This document shows positions 13,066-24,728 of a stretch of DNA of 42,584 nt, one piece after another (position 1 is the stretch's first letter; the number at the start of each line of letters is the position of its first letter). Below the pieces are notes generated by a model that saw only the letters and a program-made list of their open reading frames with translations, made no database searches and was not told the origin of the DNA. The DNA comes from Gemmobacter lutimaris (GTDB lineage: Bacteria > Pseudomonadota > Alphaproteobacteria > Rhodobacterales > Rhodobacteraceae). The stretch spans positions 1-42,584 of the forward strand of contig NZ_QXXQ01000022.1 in the NCBI RefSeq assembly GCF_003570715.1, written 5' to 3'. The position numbers and the translations under genes were made by a program.

Positions 13066-14502
13066 GTGACGACAATGCGCGACGATTTTTCCTCCATGCA
13101 GGGGAACAGCCGGGCGGCATCGCTCCGGACGCGGCTCGTCGGCCTGCCCCTGCATTACCGTTTTGCGCTGGCGGGCAGCCTCGTCACCCTGATCGGCATG
13201 GCCGTTATCGGCTCGATCGTCAGCAGTAGCATCGAAACGGGCGTTGTCCGCAACTCGGCAATTTCAAGCGCGGTCTACATGGAAAGCCTCGTCGCGCCGA
13301 TGTCGCAAGAGCTTGTCCGGTCTGCAACCCTGTCGGCGGAAACCATCGAGCGGATGAACGATCTGTTGACCCGGTCCCCGCTTTCAGAGCGGGTCATCTC
13401 GGTCAAGATCTGGCGCCCCGGCGGGTTGCTTGCCTTCAGCAGCGATGCAGACCTGATCGGACAGCACTTCCCGCCAAGCGAGGAATTGCAGCAAGCCTGG
13501 GACGGGCAGTTGAACGCCTCGTTCGATCAGCTTGAGGGCGCGGAAAGCCTGCGCGAACGCGAAACCGGCGTGCCGCTGCTGGAAGTCTACAATCCCATAC
13601 ATTCCATCGTATCGGGCGAGATCATCGCGGTAGCCGAATTCTACCTTGATGCGACCGAGCTGGAGGCCGATCTGCGCGGCGCCCATGCCCGCGCCTGGGC
13701 CGCGGTCGCCATCGTCACCGGCATGACCTTTCTGGCACTTTTCAGCATCGTGCGCTCGGGCAGCCGGACCATAGAAGACCAGACCCGGCGCCTGAGGCAT
13801 CAGGTGGACGAACTCGCGCGGATCTCGGCCCAGAACGAAGCGCTGCGAACCCGTGTTCAGGGCGCGTCGCAACGGGTAAGCGAGACGAACGAACGCTACA
13901 TGCGGCGGGTCAGTGCGGAATTGCATGATGGCCCGGCACAAGCGCTGGCACTGGCCTCGCTGCGTCTGGATGCGGTGATGCGCCGGGCTGGCGTGGCCCC
14001 CGATGACCCGGAGGCATTGCAGATGCGTGGCTGTCTGGACGAGGCGCTGCGCGACGTGCGCGACCTGTGCAGCGGGCTGACTCTGCCGGAACTTGACAGG
14101 CGTTCGGTGGCGCAGACGCTGGACCTTGCCATTTCGGCACACGAACGGCGATCAGGCGCAACGGTGTATCGGTTGTTCGGGCGCGAAGGCCCTCTGGCGG
14201 TGCCCGCACCGCATCCCTTCCTGATCTGTATCTACCGCTTTGTGCAGGAGGGCTTGATGAATGCCTACCGCCATGCGCCCGACAGCAAGGTGCAGGTCAG
14301 CGCAAGGGCCACCGACGGGCAGATGATCATTCGCGTGACGGATGACGGCCCCGGCTTCGACCCTGCACAGCGCAGCGTCACAGGGCTTGGCCTTGCCGGC
14401 CTGCGGGAAAGAGTGGAAAGCATCGGCGGCAGTTTCGAGATTGAAAGCTGTCCGCAGGGCGGCACCCGCCTTGCAATGACGCTGCCATGGGAGGCCACTT
14501 GA
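13066..14502 (+). CDS. Membrane sensor histidine kinase, NarX/HisKA_3 type
   Basis: 478 residues. One membrane segment lies at about 33-53 and another at 211-229, enclosing a periplasmic sensor of about 155 residues that I cannot assign to a ligand family. The dimerisation/phosphoacceptor region has SAELHDGPAQALALASLRLD with the phosphorylated histidine near residue 287, as in the HisKA_3 group. The ATPase domain shows the N box (FVQEGLMNAYRHAP), DDGPGFD and GLGLAGLRERVESIGG. I start it at GTG 13066-13068, nine bases after GAGGA; ATG 13075 is an alternative. Its stop overlaps the start of the response regulator (TGATG), so the pair is coupled. Confidence 0.85.
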   Translation: MTTMRDDFSSMQGNSRAASLRTRLVGLPLHYRFALAGSLVTLIGMAVIGSIVSSSIETGVVRNSAISSAVYMESLVAPMSQELVRSATLSAETIERMNDLLTRSPLSERVISVKIWRPGGLLAFSSDADLIGQHFPPSEELQQAWDGQLNASFDQLEGAESLRERETGVPLLEVYNPIHSIVSGEIIAVAEFYLDATELEADLRGAHARAWAAVAIVTGMTFLALFSIVRSGSRTIEDQTRRLRHQVDELARISAQNEALRTRVQGASQRVSETNERYMRRVSAELHDGPAQALALASLRLDAVMRRAGVAPDDPEALQMRGCLDEALRDVRDLCSGLTLPELDRRSVAQTLDLAISAHERRSGATVYRLFGREGPLAVPAPHPFLICIYRFVQEGLMNAYRHAPDSKVQVSARATDGQMIIRVTDDGPGFDPAQRSVTGLGLAGLRERVESIGGSFEIESCPQGGTRLAMTLPWEAT

Positions 14503-15146
14503 TGCCGGGCAAGGTGCATATCGTGGTTGCCGACGATCACCCTCTGTTTCGCGGCGGTGTCGTGCTGACGCTTCAGGAGCATGGCGGTTTCGCGGTTGTG
14601 GCACAGGCCGGAACCGCGAAAGACGCCGTTGCCGCCGTCGAGGCACATATGCCCGACATCGTTTTGCTGGACATCTCGATGCCGGGTTCCGGGCTTGCGG
14701 CGGCGGACGAGATTGCAAGGCGTTTTCCTGCGGTCGCCATCGTCATGCTGACCGCCTCGGAGACCGACGAAGACCTGCTGGCGGCGCTGAAGGCCGGGGC
14801 GCGGGGGTATTCGCTGAAAGGTGTTGGGGCGGATGAACTGACTGGCATCCTGCTGGGCGTGGCAGAGGGGGCTTCCTATGTGCCTCCGGCGCTGGCGGGC
14901 CGCGTACTGGCCGCCTTGCAGGACCGCCGCCGGGCAACCGCATCCCCGGAAGTGGAGGATCTGACGGAACGCGAAGCTGCGATCCTTCGTCATGTCGCGC
15001 TGGGGCAAAGCAACAAGGAAATTGCCCGCGCCCTCGACCTTCAGGAAAAGACGATCAAGCATTACATGACGAATATCCTGCAAAAGCTTCAGGTCAGAAA
15101 CCGCGTAGAGGCGGCCCTGAAAGCGCGCGATCTCGGGCTGTCCTGA
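14502..15146 (+). CDS. NarL/FixJ family response regulator
   Basis: 214 residues. The receiver domain has the acidic pair ADDHPLFRGG, phosphoacceptor D57 (PDIVLLDISMP), the conserved threonine region MLTASE and lysine in YSLKG. The C-terminal LuxR-type helix-turn-helix reads LTEREAAILRHVALGQSNKE and then IARALDLQEKTIKHYMTNIL. I use ATG 14502, which overlaps the kinase stop and has GGGAGG eight bases upstream, not the earlier in-frame ATG at 14487. It is the partner of the preceding kinase. The 7-2-7 palindrome in front of the kinase gene is a good candidate for its own binding site, giving autoregulation and control of the divergent secreted protein. Confidence 0.9.
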   Translation: MPGKVHIVVADDHPLFRGGVVLTLQEHGGFAVVAQAGTAKDAVAAVEAHMPDIVLLDISMPGSGLAAADEIARRFPAVAIVMLTASETDEDLLAALKAGARGYSLKGVGADELTGILLGVAEGASYVPPALAGRVLAALQDRRRATASPEVEDLTEREAAILRHVALGQSNKEIARALDLQEKTIKHYMTNILQKLQVRNRVEAALKARDLGLS

Positions 15147-15163: not shown

Positions 15164-15200
15164 GATGTGTCAGAAATGACCCATCTCTGGCGTCACGCCG
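15164..15200. promoter_or_regulatory. Operator in front of the PgtC-like sensor operon
   Basis: GATGTGTCA (15164-15172) and TGACCCATC (15177-15185) are 9-base arms with one mismatch around a 4-base spacer; the core is GTGTCA-N4-TGACCC. A half-site GCGTCAC begins at 15190, exactly 23 bases after the first core begins (15167). The same pair of elements with the same 23-base offset lies in front of the ABC transporter operon at 19730-19770. I see no sigma-54 -24/-12 element here. Confidence 0.6.
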
Positions 15201-15260
15201 ACAGGTGCTGGACAAGGGAACGCCCTTTCCGTTTCTGATGAGCCGGGGAGGACGATACTT

Positions 15261-16535
15261 ATGGGCAGTTTCTGGCCCGGCAGGGCGCACCGCAAGGCGG
15301 CGCTGGCCGTTTGCATATACGGCTTGGGCCTGCTTGTGGGGATCACACCCGCGCGGGCCGAGGTGCTGCGCATCCTGACCTCGATGCCGCCCGCGATGAC
15401 CGATCCCTATGTCGCCCGTATCAAGGCACAGATCCCGGAACTGGATGTTCTGGTGCTGAACAAGAACACCGTTTCGGCGGTGGAGGAACTGCTGCGCGGA
15501 AATGATCGCGCCTTCGACATCTTCTGGGCTTCCGCCCCCGAGTCGTTCGAGTTGCTGGCGCGGCGCGGACGGTTCGCACATGAGTCCGGCTGCACCGCAA
15601 TCCCGGCCGAAGGCTATGGCCCCTTCGCGCTGTCTTCGATCGGCTGGACCTTGCGCCGTGACGGACCGCGCGCGCCGCAGGACTGGGACGACCTTCTGGC
15701 GCCCCAATGGCGCGGCCAGATCGGCATGGCGCCGCCCTCGCGTTCCGGCACTGCGCATATGACGGTGGAACGCTTTCTTCAGGTGCGGGGCTGGAACGAT
15801 GGCTGGCGATACTTCCTCGCCCTGACCGAAAACCTTGCCACCATCACCTCGCGCAGCTTCGGGGTGACCGACGGCATCCGCAGCGGGCGGTTCGACATCG
15901 GGTTGACCATCGACTTTCTTGCCGGAACGGCGGAACCGGAACTGCAATTCCACTATGGCACGCCCGCCATCCTGTTCCCGGCGCAGATCGGGTTGCTGGC
16001 GGGTGCAGGCAATCCGCTAGGTGGCTGCGCCTTCATAGCCGCCGTCACCGATGACGCGGGGCAACGCCTGTTGCTGCAACCCGGCATCGGCCGTATCCCG
16101 ATTTCCCCCCGCGTGCGCGAAGCGGCGGGCGACCTGATACCACCGGAAATCCGGGCCGCCGTCCGCTCGCAATGGCTGCGCTATAATGCCGGGCTGGCCT
16201 CGGAACGCTATTGGGCGGTAAACGTGATCTTCGATCTGGCGATCACCGACCGGCTTGACCGGCGCCGCGCCCTCTGGACACGCCTGCACGCCCTGGAAAG
16301 CCGCGCGCCTGCGGCCGAAACAGCCGCTATCCGAAGGGCGATGCAGTCGATTCCGATTTCGGAACTTGAGGTGCGCACCGCGGGCGACACCAGTTTCGCC
16401 AATCGCGTGATGGAACTGACAGACCTGCCGACACCCCAGCGCGATCTGGTCCGCGCATGGCAGGCCCGGATCGACCGGCAACTGGCCGAGATTGAGCTCG
16501 CGCTGTCCGGTCTTGAACAGCGGGGCCGCCCATGA
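15261..16535 (+). CDS. Periplasmic binding protein of a sensory cassette (PgtC-like)
   Basis: 424 residues. A signal peptide ends after ARA at residue 33. The mature protein is a family 1 extracellular solute-binding fold: ILTSMPPAMTDPY, FDIFWASAPESFELL, PPSRSGTAHMTVE and SRSFGVTDGIRSGRFDIGL. The FWASAP, SRSGT and RSFGV-DG motifs recur in the transporter binding protein at 19871, so the two are paralogues, probably with the same ligand class. A C-terminal extension of about 130 residues is helical. In Salmonella, PgtC works with PgtB and PgtA to sense phosphoglycerate; here too the gene is coupled (ATGA) to a kinase gene and then a regulator. GGGGAGGA precedes the ATG. I infer that it presents ligand to the kinase rather than to a permease. 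Confidence 0.75.
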   Translation: MGSFWPGRAHRKAALAVCIYGLGLLVGITPARAEVLRILTSMPPAMTDPYVARIKAQIPELDVLVLNKNTVSAVEELLRGNDRAFDIFWASAPESFELLARRGRFAHESGCTAIPAEGYGPFALSSIGWTLRRDGPRAPQDWDDLLAPQWRGQIGMAPPSRSGTAHMTVERFLQVRGWNDGWRYFLALTENLATITSRSFGVTDGIRSGRFDIGLTIDFLAGTAEPELQFHYGTPAILFPAQIGLLAGAGNPLGGCAFIAAVTDDAGQRLLLQPGIGRIPISPRVREAAGDLIPPEIRAAVRSQWLRYNAGLASERYWAVNVIFDLAITDRLDRRRALWTRLHALESRAPAAETAAIRRAMQSIPISELEVRTAGDTSFANRVMELTDLPTPQRDLVRAWQARIDRQLAEIELALSGLEQRGRP

Positions 16536-18490
16536 TCCGCCATCTGGGCATTTGGCAGCGCCTGTTGCTGGTCGTGGGGCTGATCATTCTTCTGCTCTGG
16601 GTCAATCTGGCGCTGGCAATCTATTTCCTGTGGCAGGCGCAGGGCCGGTATCGCGCCCTTGCCGATACCGAAGTGCCACGCCTTGTGCTGACCGGCGAAC
16701 TCGCCCGCCATTCGGCGGATCTCGCGGGGCTGGCAACCTCAGTTCTGGGCGGTCAGGCGGATGAGGCCGCGCTACTGGCGGAAACGCGCCGTATCGACGC
16801 CGCGCTGACGCAGGCCCTTGCCGCACAGCCCTCGGGCACGGCGCCGGTTACCGGGATGCCACTGCGGGCCAGCATGCAGAAAGTCATTCAGGGCACACAG
16901 GCCCAGCTTGCCCTGTCACGCGACATCGCGACATCGCTGGACAGCCTGCGCTGGCTGAACATCGACATTCAGGACGAGATCGAACCGATCTTGCGGGATT
17001 TCGATTACAACATCGAAAGCCGGATGCTGGAGCTGCGCCGCGCCGAAAGTCCGCGCGACCGCGATGCCCTTGCCGCCGCCATCTCGCGCGAACGGCGCAA
17101 CCGTGATGTCTTTGCCGAGATCGGCGCCGATGCGGCCACGGCGATGACCCTGATCGTGCAGGGCGCGGTGGCAGACGACGCCGAGCGGATCGACCAGTTG
17201 TCCACGCTGTTGCAGGACTTTGCCACCCGCATGGCAGAACGCCTGTCGCAAGTGCCCGAAGCGCCAGAATATCTGACCCTGCGCCAGTCGTTGCAGCGGC
17301 TGTTTGCACTGGTCGAGGGCGACAGGTCGATCCTTGGGCAGCGGCAGATCTGGCTGGAAACGCGGGCGCAATCCTATGCCGCCATCGAAACCACGCTTCA
17401 GGGGATCAAGGCGCTGCAGACCCGGCTGGAACGGCTTTCCGCCCATGAAAAGACCGAGGTTCTGGCCCGTATCGAAGCCTCGGCCACCGGCGTCCGGCGC
17501 ATGGCGCTCTGGCTGATCGGGGGCACTTTTCTGGTGGGTTTACTGGGCGCGATGGCGCTGGACAGGCTGATCCGCACCCGGATCGTGGTGCCGTTACGCA
17601 GCCTGACCGAAGATCTGCTGGCGACGGCGGAAGGTCAGGCCCCGCCCCCGCCCGCCAGCGATGACATGGCCCGACTGACCTTTGCGGTGGGTGAATTTCG
17701 CCGCGCCATTGCCGCGCGGGATCGCGCCATCGCCGATCTGCGCACCACGCAGGACGAGTTGGTTCAGGCGGGCAAGATGGCAGCGCTTGGCACCCTTGCC
17801 GCCGGGATCAGCCACGAATTGAACCAGCCGCTTGGCGCCATGACCTATCGCATGGCGTTGCTGAAATCGGCGGCCGAGGCGGGCGACATGGCTGGGGTGG
17901 AACGGCAGGCGCAGCTTGTCACCGCACTGGCCGAGCGGATGCAGGGCATCATCCAGCATCTGCGACGCTTTGCGCGGCGTGGCCGGTTCGAAAGCCAGAC
18001 GCTGAATCTTGGTGCAATGGCCGATGAGGCGGCAGCCCTGCTGGATACAAGGTTTGCCGAAACCGGCGTCAGGCTGGACATCGCCCCCGGCACCCGCGCA
18101 GCGAACGTGACCGGCGATCCGATCCTGACGGAACAGGTGATCCTCAACCTGCTGACGAATGCGGTGGATGCGATCGAGGATCTGGGCCCGGATGCCCCAC
18201 CCGATCGCCGCAGGATCGAGGTTGCGGCGTTGCGGCAGGGCGCCGACTGGTTGCTGCACATCTCTGATACTGGTGTGGGGTTGGGCAATCTGGATCCCGA
18301 CAGCGCCATGATGCCCTTCGTTTCCACCAAGGAAGCCGGGCGCGGGCTGGGGTTGGGGCTGTCGATTTCCTACAACATCATGCGCGACATGCAGGGCGAT
18401 CTGCGCATCTCGTCGCGGGACGAGGGTCAGGGCGCAGTCGCCACGTTGCGCCTGCCCTGCGCGAAAGAGGGTCCGACCGATGGGACATGA
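16532..18490 (+). CDS. Sensor histidine kinase, DctB/PgtB-like
   Basis: 652 residues. Membrane segments at about 9-35 and 324-346 flank a 290-residue helical periplasmic domain. A HAMP-like linker follows (345-395), then the phosphoacceptor box LGTLAAGISHELNQPLGAM with H428. The ATPase domain has ILNLLTNAVDAIED, DTGVGLG and GRGLGLGLSI. The box sequence and overall layout match DctB and the PgtB kinase of Salmonella. It overlaps the binding-protein gene by four bases and the regulator gene by eleven (18480-18490), so the three proteins are translated together. The long helical periplasmic domain is a plausible docking surface for the binding protein at 15261. Confidence 0.83.
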   Translation: MIRHLGIWQRLLLVVGLIILLLWVNLALAIYFLWQAQGRYRALADTEVPRLVLTGELARHSADLAGLATSVLGGQADEAALLAETRRIDAALTQALAAQPSGTAPVTGMPLRASMQKVIQGTQAQLALSRDIATSLDSLRWLNIDIQDEIEPILRDFDYNIESRMLELRRAESPRDRDALAAAISRERRNRDVFAEIGADAATAMTLIVQGAVADDAERIDQLSTLLQDFATRMAERLSQVPEAPEYLTLRQSLQRLFALVEGDRSILGQRQIWLETRAQSYAAIETTLQGIKALQTRLERLSAHEKTEVLARIEASATGVRRMALWLIGGTFLVGLLGAMALDRLIRTRIVVPLRSLTEDLLATAEGQAPPPPASDDMARLTFAVGEFRRAIAARDRAIADLRTTQDELVQAGKMAALGTLAAGISHELNQPLGAMTYRMALLKSAAEAGDMAGVERQAQLVTALAERMQGIIQHLRRFARRGRFESQTLNLGAMADEAAALLDTRFAETGVRLDIAPGTRAANVTGDPILTEQVILNLLTNAVDAIEDLGPDAPPDRRRIEVAALRQGADWLLHISDTGVGLGNLDPDSAMMPFVSTKEAGRGLGLGLSISYNIMRDMQGDLRISSRDEGQGAVATLRLPCAKEGPTDGT

Positions 18491-19727
18491 AATCTATGTC
18501 GTGGACGACGATCCCGATTTCCGCGACGCCACGCTGGAACTTCTGCAAGGCTCGGGCTTTGACACGCGCGGTTTCGCGGCAGGGCCGGATCTGCTGGCGG
18601 TGCTGGAGCCGGAATTTGAGGGGATCATCCTGTCAGACCTGCGCATGGCGGGCATGTCAGGGATGGACCTGCTGACCGCCGTGCGCAAGGCCGCGCCTTC
18701 TGTTCCCTTCGTGCTGATCACCGCGCATGGCGACATCAAGGCCGCCGTCGGTGCCATCCGCAGCGGTGCCTTCGACTTTCTGGAAAAGCCCGCCCCGCCC
18801 GAACTGTTGATCGCTACCGTCCGGCGCGCATTGAACGCCCGTAAACTCGTGCTGGAAAACCAGCGACTGAAAGCCCGGATCGCACGCGGCACTGACATCC
18901 GCGCCCGCATTCTTGGCAAGTCAGATCCGGTCAAGACCCTGCGCCGCGAGGTGGAGGCGGTGACCGGGCATCGTGTTGATGTGCTTCTGGTCGGTGAAAC
19001 CGGCACTGAAAAGGGCCAGATCGCCCGCGTGATCCACGATTTTTCCGGGTCAGAGGGCGAATTCGTCATGCTGGATGGCGGCGGTCTGACCGAGACGAAT
19101 TTCGATGAAACCTTCCTTGGCAATGGCGCAGGCCGCCCCGGCGTGCTGGAGCTTGCGGCGAAAGGCACGCTGTTCATCGACCGTATCTCCACCATGAGCA
19201 AGGCGCTGCAACTGCGTATGGTTTCGCTTCTGACCAGCCCCGAAACCGCGGGAGGGTGCCGGGTCGTGGCCGCGATGCCGCCCGAGGATCTGGCGGATCT
19301 GCCTACCGATCTGATCTTCCGGCTGAACCTCGCCGAGATCGAGGTGCCACCTCTGCGCGAGCGTGGCGAAGATTTCTTCCTGCTGTTCGAACATTTCCTG
19401 CGCGAGGCCGTCGCCCGTCACAAGCGCCCGTTTCCTGAAATTTCGGCCACCGAAATCCGTCGCCTGCGCAACCACGCCTGGCCCGGCAACCTGCGAGAGT
19501 TGCGCGGCGTGGCCGAACGGCTTGTGATCGGGCTGCGCGTTTCGCTGCGCGAAGACAATGCGCAGGCGGCTGGTCCGCAAAGCTATGACGAGGCCATGCG
19601 CGAATTTGAAACCGCGCTGCTGATGTCCGCGCTGCGGCACAGCGGCGGCCGCAAGGCCGAAGCCGCTGATTCTCTGGCCATTCCGCGCAAGCGGCTTTAC
19701 CTGCGCCTGAAAGCCTGCGGGTTGTGA
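18480..19727 (+). CDS. NtrC-family response regulator with degenerate AAA+ domain (PgtA-like)
   Basis: 415 residues, the length I recall for Salmonella PgtA. The receiver domain is complete: DDDPDFR, D53 (LSDLRMAGMSG), T81 and K103. The central domain keeps the fold and the LRER arginine region (FRLNLAEIEVPPLRERGEDF), but Walker A reads GETGTEKG (172-179; E replaces the glycine before lysine), Walker B reads GTLFIDRI (R instead of the catalytic E), and the GAFTGA loop that contacts sigma-54 is missing, replaced by FLGNGAGRPG near 213-221. A Fis-type helix-turn-helix ends the protein. I therefore expect a DNA-binding, phosphorylation-dependent regulator that works with sigma-70 polymerase and does not hydrolyse ATP. 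Its likely sites lie at 15164-15200 and 19730-19770. Confidence 0.85.
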   Translation: MGHEIYVVDDDPDFRDATLELLQGSGFDTRGFAAGPDLLAVLEPEFEGIILSDLRMAGMSGMDLLTAVRKAAPSVPFVLITAHGDIKAAVGAIRSGAFDFLEKPAPPELLIATVRRALNARKLVLENQRLKARIARGTDIRARILGKSDPVKTLRREVEAVTGHRVDVLLVGETGTEKGQIARVIHDFSGSEGEFVMLDGGGLTETNFDETFLGNGAGRPGVLELAAKGTLFIDRISTMSKALQLRMVSLLTSPETAGGCRVVAAMPPEDLADLPTDLIFRLNLAEIEVPPLRERGEDFFLLFEHFLREAVARHKRPFPEISATEIRRLRNHAWPGNLRELRGVAERLVIGLRVSLREDNAQAAGPQSYDEAMREFETALLMSALRHSGGRKAEAADSLAIPRKRLYLRLKACGL

Positions 19728-19729
19728 CG

Positions 19730-19770
19730 GCGGGTCAGAACTGACCCGCACCGCGCGTCACAGTTGACCC
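19730..19770. promoter_or_regulatory. Tandem operators in front of the ABC transporter operon
   Basis: Site 1 is the perfect 20-base palindrome GCGGGTCAGAACTGACCCGC (19730-19749), three bases after the regulator stop. Site 2 is GCGTCA-N4-TGACCC (19755-19770). The core starts are 23 bases apart, as in front of the sensor operon. Site 2 contains TTGACC (19764-19769), which could be a -35 box, followed by an AT-rich stretch to about 19800; no sharp -10 or sigma-54 element is evident. Confidence 0.65.
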
Positions 19771-19870
19771 GAAACTTATAGAAATATCAATTAAAATCAA
19801 TAATTTGTGCAAACCTCATGCACCCCCTACCCCTAAGCGGGCGAAATGAAACGCTCAAGGGAGGAGAACC

Positions 19871-21199
19871 ATGGGCAAAGCACTCCGCGGGTCCGTCGCT
19901 GTCGCGGCGCTGACCTGTCTTGCCAGCACGGCCTATGCGGCCGACAAGGTGGTGATCGTCACATCGTTCCCCGAGGACATGACCTCGGTGATCGAAAAGG
20001 CCTTCGAGGCCGCACACCCGGAATATGATCTGGAGGTGCTGAACAAAAGCACCTCATCCGGTGTGAAATACATCAAGGAAATCGCTTCGAACAACACCGC
20101 CGACATGTTCTGGGCCTCAGCCCCGGATGCATTCGAGGTGCTGAAGAAAGAGGGCCTGCTGCTGAAGGCCGGTCTTTCGACCGAAGGCATCCCCGACCAG
20201 ATCGGCAGCTACCCGATCAACGATCCCGACGGGTTCTATTACGGCTTTGCCGCCTCGGGCTACGGCATCATGTGGAACACCCGCTACATGGAGGCGAACG
20301 GGCTGGAGCCTGCACGCGAATGGGCGGATCTGGAGAAGCCCGAGTATTTCGGCCATGTCGGCATGTCCTCGCCCTCGCGGTCGGGCACCACGCATCTGAC
20401 GGTGGAAACCGTGCTTCAGGGCGAAGGCTGGGATCAGGGCTGGGCCGACTGGAAATGGATGGCGGGCAACTTCGCCAGCGTGACCGAACGGTCCTTCGGC
20501 GTGCCGGACGGGGTGAACACCGGAAATTTCGGCATGGGCATCGTGATCGACTTCTTCGCCTTTTCGTCGCGCGCCTCGGGCTTCCCGGTCGATTTCGCCT
20601 ATCCGACGGTCACCGCGCTGGTGCCCGCCAATATCGGCATCGTCGCCAATCCGGCGAACGAGGCGGGGGCGAAGGCTTTCGTATCCTTCCTGCTGTCGGA
20701 ACCGGGGCAGGAAACGCTGTTCGATCCGGCAATCATGCGTCTGCCGGTCAACCCCTCCACCTATGCCAAGGCACCCGAGGGGCTCCCGAACCCGTTCACC
20801 GACAATTCCATCGGCGCGGCGGTGAAGTTCGATGTCGATAAATCGGGCGCGCGTTACTACGTCGTCAGCTCGCTTTTCGACGTCATGGTCACCTACCGGC
20901 TGGACGACCTGCGCGCCGCCGTGCGCGCTGTGCAACTGGCTGAAGAAAAGCATGCGGGCAGCGACAATGCCGAAGCCAAGGCGCTGATCGCCGAGGCGCG
21001 CAAGCTGATCGAGGCCATGCCGATCACCGAGGAACAAAGCCTCGACCCGGCCTTTGCAGGCGCCTTCACGAAGGTCCGCAAGGAACAGGGCGACGAGATC
21101 GGCCAACGTCAGGCCGAGCTTGAACAGCAATGGGATGCGATGGTCGTGGCCAATTACGCCAAGGCCCGTGAACTGGCGGAAAAAGCCGCCGGCATGTGA
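19871..21199 (+). CDS. ABC importer periplasmic binding protein (AfuA/FbpA-like)
   Basis: 442 residues with a signal peptide ending AYA at residue 23. The mature sequence is a paralogue of the sensory protein at 15261: FWASAPDAFEVL, SSPSRSGTTHLTVE, TERSFGVPDGVNTG and GIVIDFFAF align well. It shares the C-terminal helical extension. The family includes iron-binding FbpA and the sugar-phosphate binder AfuA; the FbpA-type tyrosine pair is not obvious, and linkage to a PgtCBA-like cassette favours an organophosphate ligand. GGGAGGAG lies about seven bases before the ATG. It is the first gene of the importer operon, with tandem operators in front and strong hairpins after it, which would favour a high level of this protein relative to the membrane parts. 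Confidence 0.85.
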   Translation: MGKALRGSVAVAALTCLASTAYAADKVVIVTSFPEDMTSVIEKAFEAAHPEYDLEVLNKSTSSGVKYIKEIASNNTADMFWASAPDAFEVLKKEGLLLKAGLSTEGIPDQIGSYPINDPDGFYYGFAASGYGIMWNTRYMEANGLEPAREWADLEKPEYFGHVGMSSPSRSGTTHLTVETVLQGEGWDQGWADWKWMAGNFASVTERSFGVPDGVNTGNFGMGIVIDFFAFSSRASGFPVDFAYPTVTALVPANIGIVANPANEAGAKAFVSFLLSEPGQETLFDPAIMRLPVNPSTYAKAPEGLPNPFTDNSIGAAVKFDVDKSGARYYVVSSLFDVMVTYRLDDLRAAVRAVQLAEEKHAGSDNAEAKALIAEARKLIEAMPITEEQSLDPAFAGAFTKVRKEQGDEIGQRQAELEQQWDAMVVANYAKARELAEKAAGM

Positions 21200-21209
21200 T
21201 GCCCGAACC

Positions 21210-21276
21210 GGCGCCGCGGAAAGTAGGGCCCCGCGGCGCCCGTCAGCGTGGTGCGGCCGCTCCCGGCGGCACCACG
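21210..21276 (+). other. Two hairpins between binding-protein and permease genes
   Basis: Hairpin 1 pairs GGCGCCGCGG (21210-21219) with CCGCGGCGCC (21231-21240), ten perfect pairs. Hairpin 2 pairs CGTGGTGC (21247-21254) with GCACCACG (21269-21276), with an inner GCCG/CGGC stem. Neither has a T-tract. They lie in the 101-base gap after the binding-protein stop and probably stabilise its mRNA and reduce read-through to the permease, as is common in ABC importer operons. Confidence 0.7.
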
Positions 21277-21300
21277 CACCCTTTCCAGCAGGACACCCCC

Positions 21301-23052
21301 ATGAGCCACAGACCCGCCACGGGCACGGGACGGCAGACGCTTGCCGACCGGCTTCCCGCCTTCCTGTTTCCGCGCCTCAGCCCCATCGCGCTGACCGGCG
21401 TCTTCATCGCCATCTTCCTGATCGGTTTCCTGATCTTCCCGGTGCTTCAGGTCATCCATGTCGCCTTCCAGAACCCGGCGACCGGCGCGCTGACGCTTCA
21501 GAACTTCGGTGATTTCTTCGCCACGGCGCTGTTCCGCGAAAGCTTTGTCAATTCCTTCTACGTTTCGGCCATGTCGGTGGTGGTGGCGACGGTAATCGCG
21601 CTGCCGCTGGCCTATATCACCACGCGGTTCAACTTCGGTGGCTCCGCCCTGATCCAGAGCCTTGGCTTCATCCCGCTGATCATGCCGCCCTTCGTGGGCG
21701 CGGTAGCGATGCAGCTGATCTTCGGGCGCAATGGCACGATCAACCTGCTGCTGCGGCAGCATCTGGGCTTTACCATTCCCTTCATGGAGGGGCTGAACGG
21801 TGTGATCCTCGTGCAGTCGATCCACTATTTCCCCTTCATCCTGATCAACCTGTCGGCCAGCCTGCGCAACATCGACCGTTCGATGGAAGAAGCGGCGCAA
21901 AACCTTGGCGCGCACGGGCTGCGGCTGTTCCGCCGCGTGGTGTTTCCGCTGGCAACGCCGGGCTATGTGGCTGGGGCCGCACTGGTGTTCATCAAGGTGT
22001 TCGATGATCTGGGCACACCGCTGCTGCTGAACGTCAACAACATGCTGGCCCCGCAGGCCTATCTGCGCATCACCTCTGTCGGGATCAGTGATCCGATGGG
22101 CTATGTGATCTCGGTCATTCTGGTCGCCTTCTCGATCCTGTCGCTCTGGGCCTCGTTCCTCGTGATGCGCGGCAAGGATTATGCGACGGTCCAGAAGGGC
22201 GGCGGCGGTCTGGCAAAGCGCGACCTCGCCCCGCGCGAGAAGGTGCTGGCCTATGGCGTGGTGATGTTCATCCTCGCCGTGGTGCTGTCACCGCATATCG
22301 GGCTGTTCCTGCTGTCCATCGGCACGATCTGGAGCTTCGCGCCATTGCCCGACGGCTATACCCTCGCCAATTACGCCCGGATGTGGGAAGCGTCGCAGGA
22401 TTACGTCGTCAACACCGTCCTTTACGCGGGCCTCGCCGCCACGCTGGACGTGCTGATCGGCACCGCCATCGCCTATATCGTGCTGCGCACCGGCATCGCA
22501 GGGCGCAAGTGGCTGGATTACCTTGCCACCGCCGCGCTGGCCGTTCCGGGCGTGGTGCTCGGGATCGGCTATCTGCGCACCTTCCAGGATGTGAACGTGC
22601 CCTTCCTCGACAAGCCGCTGGCAAGCTGGTGGGTCATCATCGCGCTGGCGCTGACAATCCGGCGCCTGCCCTACGCGCTGCGCGCCTGCATGGCGGCGCT
22701 GCAACAGGTCAGCCTCGCCCTGGAGGAAGCGGCCGAAAGCCTTGGCGCAACCAAGCTGCGTTCGATCCGCAAGATCGTGGTTCCACTGATGACCGGCGGC
22801 ATTCTTGCGGGCTTCGTGACCAGCTTCGCCACAGCGGCGGTGGAACTGTCGGCCACCATCATGCTGGTGTCCTCGGACAGCGACAGCCCGCTGGCCTATG
22901 GCATCTACCTGTTCATGCAGACCCCGTCGGGGCGCGGTGCGGGGGCGGCGCTGGGAATGCTGGCCGTGGTCATCGTCGCACTGGGCACGGTCCTGTCCCA
23001 GATCATCATCGAACGCGACAAGAAGCTGCGCACCACCGGGCGCGAGCACTGA
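21301..23052 (+). CDS. ABC importer permease, fused two-domain FbpB/AfuB type
   Basis: 583 residues with about twelve membrane segments in two homologous halves. Each half has the cytoplasmic EAA loop that contacts the ATPase: MEEAAQNLGAHGLRLFRRVV in the first and EEAAESLGATKLRSIRKIVV in the second. This fused layout is that of FbpB and AfuB. I start it at ATG 21301, preceded by AGGA eight bases away; an in-frame GTG at 21196 overlaps the previous stop but would translate the two hairpins into a proline/glycine-rich tail without family features. It sits between the binding protein and the ATPase and forms the membrane channel of the importer. Confidence 0.87.
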   Translation: MSHRPATGTGRQTLADRLPAFLFPRLSPIALTGVFIAIFLIGFLIFPVLQVIHVAFQNPATGALTLQNFGDFFATALFRESFVNSFYVSAMSVVVATVIALPLAYITTRFNFGGSALIQSLGFIPLIMPPFVGAVAMQLIFGRNGTINLLLRQHLGFTIPFMEGLNGVILVQSIHYFPFILINLSASLRNIDRSMEEAAQNLGAHGLRLFRRVVFPLATPGYVAGAALVFIKVFDDLGTPLLLNVNNMLAPQAYLRITSVGISDPMGYVISVILVAFSILSLWASFLVMRGKDYATVQKGGGGLAKRDLAPREKVLAYGVVMFILAVVLSPHIGLFLLSIGTIWSFAPLPDGYTLANYARMWEASQDYVVNTVLYAGLAATLDVLIGTAIAYIVLRTGIAGRKWLDYLATAALAVPGVVLGIGYLRTFQDVNVPFLDKPLASWWVIIALALTIRRLPYALRACMAALQQVSLALEEAAESLGATKLRSIRKIVVPLMTGGILAGFVTSFATAAVELSATIMLVSSDSDSPLAYGIYLFMQTPSGRGAGAALGMLAVVIVALGTVLSQIIIERDKKLRTTGREH

Positions 23053-23076
23053 GACAAGCTGCAAGGAGTTCTTCAC

Positions 23077-24135
23077 ATGCACAGCGAAATGGCCGGAATC
23101 GAAATCCGCGACCTGCATCTGTCCTTCGGCAGCACCAATGTGCTGACCGGGGTCAACCTGACCATCGAACCGGGCGAATTCTTCGCCTTCCTCGGCCCCT
23201 CCGGCTCTGGCAAATCGACGCTTCTGCGGTCGATTGCCGGCTTCGGGCCACGTCCGCAGGGCGAAATCCGCATCGGCGGGCGACCCGTGGCCGATCTGCC
23301 GCCGTGGAAGCGTGATGTCGGCATGGTGTTCCAGTCCTACGCGCTCTGGCCGCATATGTCGGTGCGCGAGAATGTGGCTTTCGGCCTGCGCGAACGCAAG
23401 GTGGCCAGCGCCGAGATCCGCCGCCGCGTAGATGAGGCGCTGGAGCTGGTGGGCCTTGCCCATCTGGCCGACCGCATGCCGAATCAGCTTTCGGGCGGGC
23501 AGCAGCAGCGCATCGCACTGGCCCGCACGGTGGTCATCGCGCCCAAGGTTCTGCTTCTGGACGAGCCGCTGTCGAACCTCGACGCCAGCCTGCGCGTGCA
23601 GATGCGGCGCGAGCTTCTGGCACTGCAACGCAAGCTGGGGCTGACCACGATCTTCGTGACCCATGATCAGGAGGAGGCCAATACCACCGCCGACCGCATG
23701 GCGGTGCTGGATGGCGGCGTGATCCAGCAGGTTGGCACGCCGCAGCAGCTTTATGACACGCCAGTCAACCTGTTCGTGGCACAGTTTCTGGGCACGGCGA
23801 ACATTCTGGAAGGCACGGTCGAGGCTGATACCGGCGGCGCCCGATTCCGCACCCGCACCGGCGATACGCTGTCGCTGCCTTCCAGCGCCGGCCGGACCGG
23901 CACGCGCATGGTTCTGCGGCCGCAGAACATCACGCTGCGCCGCGAGGCGGGCGCGAATGCGCTTTCCGGCCAGATCCTGCACCGCGAGTTTCTGGGCAGC
24001 CAGATCCGCTATCTGGTGCAGGCAGGCGGTGCCGAAATCGTGGTCGATCAAAGCCACAGCGCCGGGCAGGACTGGTTCGAACCCGGCACCGCCGTGCATC
24101 TTTCCGCCAATACCGACAGCGCGGTGCTGCTGTGA
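23077..24135 (+). CDS. ABC importer ATPase (FbpC/AfuC-like)
   Basis: 352 residues. Walker A is GPSGSGKST, the Q loop VFQSYALWPHMSV, the signature LSGGQQQRIALAR and Walker B VLLLDEPLSNLDA, with the switch histidine in FVTHDQEEA. A C-terminal TOBE-like domain of about 110 residues follows, as in FbpC, PotA and MalK-type ATPases; it may carry a regulatory or ligand-sensing site. AAGGAG lies eight bases before the ATG. The gene follows the permease by 24 bases and its stop overlaps the phosphatase start (GTGA), tying the phosphatase to the transport unit. Confidence 0.92.
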   Translation: MHSEMAGIEIRDLHLSFGSTNVLTGVNLTIEPGEFFAFLGPSGSGKSTLLRSIAGFGPRPQGEIRIGGRPVADLPPWKRDVGMVFQSYALWPHMSVRENVAFGLRERKVASAEIRRRVDEALELVGLAHLADRMPNQLSGGQQQRIALARTVVIAPKVLLLDEPLSNLDASLRVQMRRELLALQRKLGLTTIFVTHDQEEANTTADRMAVLDGGVIQQVGTPQQLYDTPVNLFVAQFLGTANILEGTVEADTGGARFRTRTGDTLSLPSSAGRTGTRMVLRPQNITLRREAGANALSGQILHREFLGSQIRYLVQAGGAEIVVDQSHSAGQDWFEPGTAVHLSANTDSAVLL

Positions 24136-24728
24136 GCGCCGCCGAAATCCTGCTGTTGCGCCACGGCGAAACCGAATGGAACCGGGAAGGGCGCATTCAG
24201 GGCAGCAAGGACTCGCCGCTGACCGAACTGGGCCTGCGGCAGGCCGAACAACAGGCGCGCATTCTTGCCACCCATCTGCCGGACCTCGGCGGGCATGCCT
24301 GTTACGCCAGCCCCCTGCCCCGCGCGCAACGCACCGCCGCCATCGCGCTTGGCGGGGTGGGTCCCGTGACGGATGCGCGCCTGCGCGAACTGGATTGCGG
24401 GGCGTGGGAAGGGCTGACCCCCGCCGAACGCGCCGCGCAATTCCCTTCACTGGCGGCCAGTTGCAAGGATGATTTCGACCTCTACCAGAACGCGCCGGGC
24501 GGCGAGGGGCTGGAAAAGCTGACCCTCAGGCTCCGATCGTTTCTTGACGACATGCAACGCCCTGCCATCATCGTGGCGCATAAAGTGGTTTTGCTGGTGC
24601 TGCGCGGGCTGCTGACAGGGCGGGACATCCCTGCCCTGCACAACCTGACCTCGCCACAGGGGGTCGTCATCCGCCTCGCGGACGGGCAGGAAACCATTCT
24701 GACCGGGGCAGATTGTGTCAGCTCCTGA
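24132..24728 (+). CDS. Histidine phosphatase family protein (phosphoglycerate mutase-like)
   Basis: 198 residues. The catalytic motif LLLRHGETEWNREGRIQG carries the phosphohistidine near residue 11 and the conserved arginine. YASPLPRAQRTA supplies the second arginine, ELDCGAWEGLT the acid, and IIVAHKVVLLVLRG the second histidine. No signal peptide is visible, so it acts in the cytoplasm. It starts at GTG overlapping the ATPase stop. Members remove phosphate from sugar phosphates, phosphoglycerates and similar compounds. Translational coupling to an importer with a PgtCBA-like control system suggests that it dephosphorylates the imported compound; the substrate is inferred from context only. 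Confidence 0.82.
   Translation: MSAAEILLLRHGETEWNREGRIQGSKDSPLTELGLRQAEQQARILATHLPDLGGHACYASPLPRAQRTAAIALGGVGPVTDARLRELDCGAWEGLTPAERAAQFPSLAASCKDDFDLYQNAPGGEGLEKLTLRLRSFLDDMQRPAIIVAHKVVLLVLRGLLTGRDIPALHNLTSPQGVVIRLADGQETILTGADCVSS

Follow-up and report, generated by a model that had tools for sequence, protein, structure and literature searches.

Several described systems bear on the locus reported here. The PgtC-PgtB-PgtA system of Salmonella is reported to sense 3-phosphoglycerate, and its regulator PgtA is suggested from a model to have a sigma-54-interacting domain (PMC11077982); a word search of a review on Salmonella sigma-54 activators (PMC4987338) returned no mention of PgtA. Enhancer-binding proteins (EBPs) that lack the GAFTGA loop and act at sigma-70 promoters are likewise described and include NtrC of Rhodobacter capsulatus, NtrC of Caulobacter, and VspR (PMC10274813; PMC6925177). 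Both the sensing in Salmonella and the action of GAFTGA-less EBPs are thus known already. In this study, we analyzed a 42,584-nucleotide stretch of Gemmobacter lutimaris (contig NZ_QXXQ01000022.1, hereafter the window), in which the gene of a PgtA-like response regulator is followed by an ATP-binding cassette (ABC) importer operon and the two are separated by a pair of inverted repeats. We consider it highly probable, on the basis of sequence comparison, that the regulator activates the importer through this tandem operator and that in the clade of the window it also controls its own operon through one site. The operator, its exact 23-bp spacing, its link to the regulator, and the joint change in the regulator and its target promoter were not found among the literature matches listed, a search that left subscription journals mostly outside its scope, and as far as these matches show they are not in print.

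The tandem operator before the importer

The distal operator (GGGTCAGAACTGACCC, 19732-19747) starts 4 bases past the stop codon of the regulator gene, and the proximal operator (GCGTCACAGTTGACCC, 19755-19770) starts 23 bp after the distal one; these and the other elements and genes of the locus given below (15167-24728) are on the forward strand. Both sites had been reported in a first-pass annotation of the window, together with GTGTCAGAAATGACCC at 15167-15182 and GCGTCAC at 15190 upstream of the sensor operon, and all of these letters and positions were correct. The perfect 20-base palindrome that it described at the importer consists of two 9-base arms around a 2-base center (AA).

An alignment of the regulators was used as the query in a search of 394 genomes of the family. 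Ten clear orthologues were obtained (762.8 to 461.3 bits; next score, 354.8), revealing a patchy distribution (2 of the 11 genomes of the genus and 10 of the 394 of the family). These ten, Gemmobacter caeni, and Zongyanglinia marina constituted a set of 12 loci, to which three Paracoccus plasmid loci were added to give 15. To the extent that their contigs cover it, the gene order in the 12 loci was sensor, kinase, regulator, binding protein, permease, and ATPase; L042, L148, and L150 had no phosphatase gene. The record of one locus (L041/G012, JAFKDC010000026.1) is titled Enemella evansiae, an actinomycete. This contig is also part of genome G012, which belongs by its placement to the family of the window, and the proteins of the locus are 57-88% identical to those of the window; the title looks wrong or the assembly mixed.

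Alignment of the importer side across these relatives revealed two sites with a start-to-start distance of 23 bp in all 15 loci carrying an orthologous regulator. The pairs had 0 to 5 mismatches over 24 positions, and the distal site started between 12 bases upstream and 12 bases downstream of where the regulator stop codon ends. The half-sites were nearly invariant. They varied at the second position of the left half in the proximal site (T in 10 loci, G in 4, and C in 1) and at the sixth position of the left half in either site (A or G), and the four central bases were more variable. A scan of the same 394 genomes for the tandem with at most two mismatches returned eight genomes, one place in each, and all eight were among the ten with the regulator (Fisher p = 3e-15); the remaining two of the ten contained the tandem with three mismatches to the searched pattern. 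The 384 family genomes without a regulator ortholog contained no tandem at this threshold, and the reversed-pattern control also gave 0. The tandem was similarly missing from the approximately 420 bases upstream of the estimated gene start in all eight class loci in which the importer has no adjacent regulator (L228-L235; best, 10-12 mismatches). The first-pass annotation had considered the arrangement hard to explain by chance, and at the importer it is indeed far beyond chance.

For the exact pattern GNGTCA-N4-TGACCC, three sites were found in the window, every one within the two gaps that the first-pass annotation had named. The genome scan that it had recommended yielded six distinct exact sites in the whole genome (4.66 Mb), including these three, and the reversed control pattern gave two forward matches and one reverse match. 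The other three sites were inside coding frames, namely an XdhC gene and two copies of an ISL3-type transposase, an assignment made by Pfam with one of the two copies scanned. The two transposase copies, each with a motif match (G000:C7, 60528 and 62273), are 1745 bases apart.

The position of the distal site around the end of the regulator gene would also suit a role in RNA, with the repeats forming a terminator or mRNA-stabilizing hairpins. The sites can form short stems, T runs of 5 (L041) and 7 (L148) follow the proximal site, one of the 180 stem pairs keeps a wobble pair by a two-sided change (L152), and the sensor sites of L041 and L149 are symmetrically changed. Nevertheless, 20 of the 180 stem pairs are broken, the longest T run in the 12 bases past the pair is at most 3 in 13 of the 15 loci, and copies of the operator also precede the sensor operon (seven loci) and unlinked phosphatase genes (one genome, G139); these findings leave a function in RNA very improbable. 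We assign an equally small chance to binding by another regulator, for example the NarL-type response regulator encoded at 14487-15146, the gene of which ends 20 bases upstream of the sensor-promoter site. Neither this protein nor its kinase had a homologue above 55 bits in the other 11 loci, two of which (L040 and L154) are truncated at the end of a contig, and the importer sites are conserved regardless. The UhpB/NarL-like two-component pair itself (13066-15146) lies directly upstream of the sensor operon and seems to be a local neighbor because its homologues were not seen in the other loci.

Absence of the GAFTGA loop and the importer promoter

The regulator (18480-19727) comprises a REC domain, a degenerate AAA+ domain, and a Fis-type helix-turn-helix. 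The GAFTGA loop was absent in all 15 regulators, that is, the regulator of the window and its 14 relatives; by sequence, the window regulator lacks the hallmark of a sigma-54 EBP and has the composition of an NtrC-type regulator used with the housekeeping sigma factor, with REC, AAA-like, and Fis-type parts retained. GAFTGA was present in six loci outside the family, which were obtained from a permease search of the class and plasmids (G700, Maritalea, two Azospirillum, Ensifer, and Chelatococcus). In one of these, L223, two genes separate the regulator from the importer. Further GAFTGA-bearing proteins from a class search at 1e-125 were dropped as paralogues; L203 and L204, which were examined at length, had no adjoining importer.

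The importer promoters differed in the same manner. With a sigma-54 box scored by our own weights (maximum, 15), a -24/-12 box of 14 to 15 was found before the importer in all six GAFTGA-bearing loci and also before the importer of Aminobacter, near which no regulator was found. The score was at most 11 in all 15 GAFTGA-less loci, the best of the window being 9.5, and at most 11.5 in the eight importer loci without a regulator. In an unrooted tree of 21 regulator proteins, the GAFTGA label corresponded to a single change (support 100/99; 100% of 200 bootstrap trees), and, as the loop is a feature of NtrC-type proteins at large, its loss is the natural reading of this tree. The pattern looks like one joint switch of regulator and promoter from sigma-54 to the housekeeping sigma factor. 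The first-pass annotation had anticipated neither the missing loop nor the two promoter types. With somewhat less assurance than for the operator, we favor a complete natural conversion of an enhancer-dependent regulon in one alphaproteobacterial branch, in which the loop would have been lost, the promoter swapped, and the distance to the start nearly kept, the ATPase decaying later in part of the group.

No match to PF04552 or PF04963, the families used to detect rpoN, was found in the genome of the window (76 contigs, 100% complete), and rpoN was not found in 5 of the 11 GAFTGA-less genomes examined (that of the window, G012, G139, G240, and G354). The Walker motifs of the window regulator are altered (GETGTEKG and GTLFIDRI), as both also are in its nearest relatives, and Walker A and B are intact in the clade of L152-L154, L221, and L227. 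ATP hydrolysis by the window regulator is unlikely because the acidic pair of Walker B reads D-R and Walker A is altered. The regulator of L221 (Paracoccus denitrificans PD1222 plasmid 1, 5126-6397) is annotated as "sigma-54 dependent," yet it has no GAFTGA and its importer has no -24/-12 box.

The recognition segment of the regulator changed along with the operator. The segment IPRKRLYLR was present in all 15 regulators that are paired with GGGTCA-N4-TGACCC-type sites; the regulators of G700 and Maritalea (VPRKKLYLRM) were accompanied by single, looser sites (GTGTCAAAAGTAACTC and GAGTCATTTTTGACAC), and those of Azospirillum and Chelatococcus (ITRKTLYLKM) and Ensifer (ISRKTLYLKM) by GTTACC-N4-TKACCC-like sites. 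This joint change supports, without proving, the view that the regulator reads the site. Flexible spacing in the sigma-54-type loci was considered and dropped; the two Azospirillum loci also have a spacing of 23, and their distal sites show 2-3 mismatches.

Behind the tandem, a conserved TTG suggests the position of a promoter. We propose a -35 element at 19805-19810 (TTGTGC) and, assuming a 17-bp spacing, a weak -10 element at 19828-19833 (TACCCC), which would place the start near 19840. The TTG stood 35 (8 loci) or 34 (2 loci) bases past the proximal operator in all ten loci of the window's group and 25 bases past it in all five loci of the other group, which form one tree clade; the two groups differ by 10 bp, about one helical turn, and none of 2000 shuffles per group attained the observed maximum. 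In the five-locus clade, CACAGT (4 loci) or CACAAA (1 locus) comes next at a 17-bp spacing. When the TTG is taken as the -35 element, the distance from the first base of the proximal operator to the predicted start is 84-85 bases (10 loci) or 75 bases (5 loci); in the sigma-54-type loci, where the operator sequences differ, it is 84 bases in 4 of 7 and otherwise 98, 104, and 107. A CAA-N4-TTG element (AATCAATAATTTG, 19795-19807), found as CAA-N4-TTG in 13 of the 15 loci, overlaps the proposed -35 element. It lies in an A/T-rich stretch and fits the consensus of integration host factor, perfectly in 5 of the 15 loci; we make no claim for this factor because CAA-N4-TTG may be part of the -35 region.

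According to the mechanism that we propose, the periplasmic-binding-protein-like (PBP-like) sensor (15261-16535) would signal to the kinase (16532-18490) and the kinase to the regulator, and dimers of the phosphorylated regulator would bind the inverted repeats at 19732 and 19755, which probably lie on about the same face of the DNA because 23 bp is close to two turns. The bound dimers would activate a weak housekeeping-sigma promoter, with a putative -35 element 50 bp past the first base of the proximal site, and thereby switch on the importer and the phosphatase; in the clade of the window, the extra site at 15167 would allow control of the regulator's own operon. The protein would descend from a sigma-54 activator that lost the GAFTGA loop and, in the window, ATPase residues as well, and on the same branch the importer promoter would have lost its -24/-12 box.

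The regulator could instead bind these sites and repress both the importer and its own operon, given that repressors, too, typically have near-perfect operators and a site of probable autoregulation. We regard repression as unlikely. Counted from the first base of the proximal operator, the predicted starts are about 75-85 bp away, which leaves the proposed promoter uncovered by either site; the -10 boxes have the weakness seen at activated promoters; and the sigma-54-type relatives, which need an activator, have operators at a similar place.

The sensor-operon promoter and sites elsewhere

The sensor-kinase-regulator operon is preceded by a single operator (GTGTCAGAAATGACCC, 15167-15182) that matches the pattern exactly. 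A site with one or two mismatches to GGGTCA-N4-TGACCC was found before the sensor gene in 7 of the 14 GAFTGA-less loci with an upstream region, and these seven loci correspond precisely to a single clade in the tree of regulators (support 100/98). Equally good sites occurred in 0 of 500 shuffles in five of these loci and in 11 and 15 of 500 in the other two.

The first-pass annotation had envisaged the same tandem at both promoters, with a weaker second site before the regulator's own operon (GCGTCACGCCGACAGG, 15190-15205). In favor of this model, the window does have GCGTCAC at the predicted offset, and the left half matches in 5 of 6 letters, which by plain arithmetic with equal base frequencies is expected about once in 200 at one fixed position; a second half-site may therefore be a peculiarity of the window strain. 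Nevertheless, the stretch has 7 mismatches in 12 positions to GGGTCA-N4-TGACCC, a count at chance level when both halves are considered. Gemmobacter caeni has the same count and no visible motif there, and the corresponding position in the other 12 GAFTGA-less loci has 8-11 mismatches, so the second site appears in none of the 13 other loci, that of the closest relative included. No second site 23 bp on was found in any of the seven loci with a sensor site, the window having the half-site GCGTCAC only. One shared tandem architecture is consequently not supported, and we hold it to be most doubtful: the tandem stands at the importer in every locus, and the sensor promoter has one conserved site. 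The annotation had also predicted that the PgtA-like regulator controls both itself and the transporter. The site does track the regulator, and in one clade autoregulation is consistent with the lone conserved site upstream of the sensor operon.

Outside the locus, the operator was found before a phosphatase gene in G139. The importer operon of this genome contains no phosphatase gene, and the two closest homologues of the window phosphatase (41% identity each) are neighbors on a different contig, where a perfect operator (GGGTCAATCCTGACCC) precedes the first frame by 44 bp. A site at this position is expected if the operator marks the regulon. The second gene need not share the transcript because a tRNA-Val gene lies between the two.

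Several observations weigh against the proposed activation by a converted regulator. The 15 loci are not 15 independent events because several of them are close relatives; the TTG offset groups, which also contain several near relatives, were noticed before they were tested, though they coincide with tree clades, and the -10 boxes are poor in the window's group of ten. As rpoN is present in 6 of the 11 GAFTGA-less genomes, its loss is not the general cause of the change; the genome of Gemmobacter caeni has rpoN. The site upstream of the sensor gene is missing in 7 of the 14 GAFTGA-less loci, and none within two mismatches was found in the five GAFTGA-bearing loci examined. The phosphatase case in G139 is a single genome, and in G354, the operon of which also lacks the phosphatase, the best homologue has no site within two mismatches. 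Finally, the 11 regulator-bearing genomes contain 17 single GKGTCA-N4-TGACMC sites outside the locus, compared with 3 for the reversed pattern. This excess may reflect additional targets, a different protein that has a similar site, or chance.

Each of the 17 sites falls inside one or more mechanically called frames, which means little in DNA so rich in GC; Pfam backs those of the ISL3 transposase and XdhC, that of an LPD5 protein, and that at the end of rpoZ. The neighborhood of every site was examined for further regulon members, and only the phosphatase site of G139 stands out. A perfect site in G141, at the end of rpoZ and 31 bp before a frame read as RelA/SpoT-like, and a site in G001:C54, 24 bases inside a frame, are possible but unconvincing candidates.

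Genes of the locus, substrate, and comparison with known systems

The PBP-like sensor is PgtC-like (SBP_bac_11/SBP_bac_6), with a sensor role that we infer; it is 35% identical to the importer binding protein (19871-21199, SBP_bac_6), and the two are paralogues. The histidine kinase (HisKA and HATPase_c) is PgtB-like, with HisKinPtgB as its top NCBIfam match (156.8 bits; cut-off, 1000), and the regulator matched ResRegPgtA, the PgtA equivalog NF047793, with 240.6 bits, below the curated cut-off of 650. Because their scores are below the cut-offs, the two proteins are not members of the PgtB and PgtA equivalogs. The importer operon continues with a fused ABC permease (21196-23052; BPD_transp_1 in two stretches), an ABC ATPase (23077-24135; ABC_tran and TOBE_2), and a histidine phosphatase family enzyme (24132-24728; His_Phos_1). 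The adjoining PBP-like sensor, kinase, and REC-AAA-Fis regulator reproduce the three parts of PgtABC-like sensing; no PgtP-like carrier was found among the ten window genes scanned, and an ABC importer lies downstream, so the full PgtABC-PgtP arrangement is not present. A permease homologue elsewhere (G694:C2:581269-582993) has one in-frame TGA.

The nearest solved binding proteins by sequence were all weak matches, namely 8x1a (an iron-compound protein), 4r72 (AfuA; E 4e-11), and 6wce (a pyridoxal-phosphate binder). In L041 (14372-15793) and L151 (9972-11405), a pyruvate kinase gene comes next after the phosphatase gene. Other neighbors include annotated phosphoglycolate phosphatases, a HAD-type hydrolase (Maritalea), and a pyridoxal-phosphate synthase (P. 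denitrificans). The phosphatase and the neighboring genes suggest that the importer takes up a small phosphorylated compound that is then dephosphorylated, and the pyruvate kinase gene hints at a glycolytic phosphorylated substrate.

These results predict a small regulon and an exact operator in two cultured species, Gemmobacter caeni and Paracoccus denitrificans PD1222 (plasmid 1). They also provide a comparative series consisting of the sigma-54 type, regulators in which the loop is lost and the ATPase motifs are kept, and regulators in which the loop is lost and the ATPase motifs are decayed, by which the passage from an ATP-driven activator to a plain activator of housekeeping RNA polymerase could be tested gene by gene. 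The automatic label "sigma-54 dependent" is probably wrong for the GAFTGA-less group.

VfmH of Dickeya, which has GAFTDA (PMC10714721), was considered and not used as a comparison. In the use of ABC import for phosphorylated compounds, the importer resembles the AfuABC sugar-phosphate importer (PMC4546632); the binding proteins are distantly similar, a likeness that amounts to a weak overall sequence match. The arrangement as a whole is similar to PgtABC-PgtP of Salmonella, in which a sensor, a kinase, and an NtrC-type regulator are reported to induce a system that takes up a phosphorylated compound (PMC11077982). Unlike in Salmonella, the apparent target in the window is not PgtP but an ABC importer accompanied by a phosphatase, and the NCBIfam scores are far under the equivalog cut-offs. 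In the GltB-GtrS-GltR system of Pseudomonas, a binding protein is likewise described as activating a two-component system with an importer promoter as its main target (PMC7927077); GltB does both jobs there, whereas the sensor and importer functions here appear to be divided between separate paralogues.

For the regulator, the closest likeness lies in GAFTGA-less EBPs. Caulobacter NtrC and Vibrio VspR also lack GAFTGA and are reported to act at sigma-70 promoters; they differ from the present regulator in their regulons, and Caulobacter NtrC is reported to need both ATP binding and hydrolysis (PMC10274813). NtrC of Rhodobacter capsulatus, a member of the same order (Rhodobacterales), is an NtrC-type regulator with a deleted GAFTGA loop that is described as working with the housekeeping sigma factor (PMC10274813; PMC6925177). 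It is reported to need ATP binding and controls another regulon, whereas the window regulator has altered Walker A and B motifs, and, unlike for R. capsulatus NtrC, sigma-54-type relatives of the window's system still exist for comparison.

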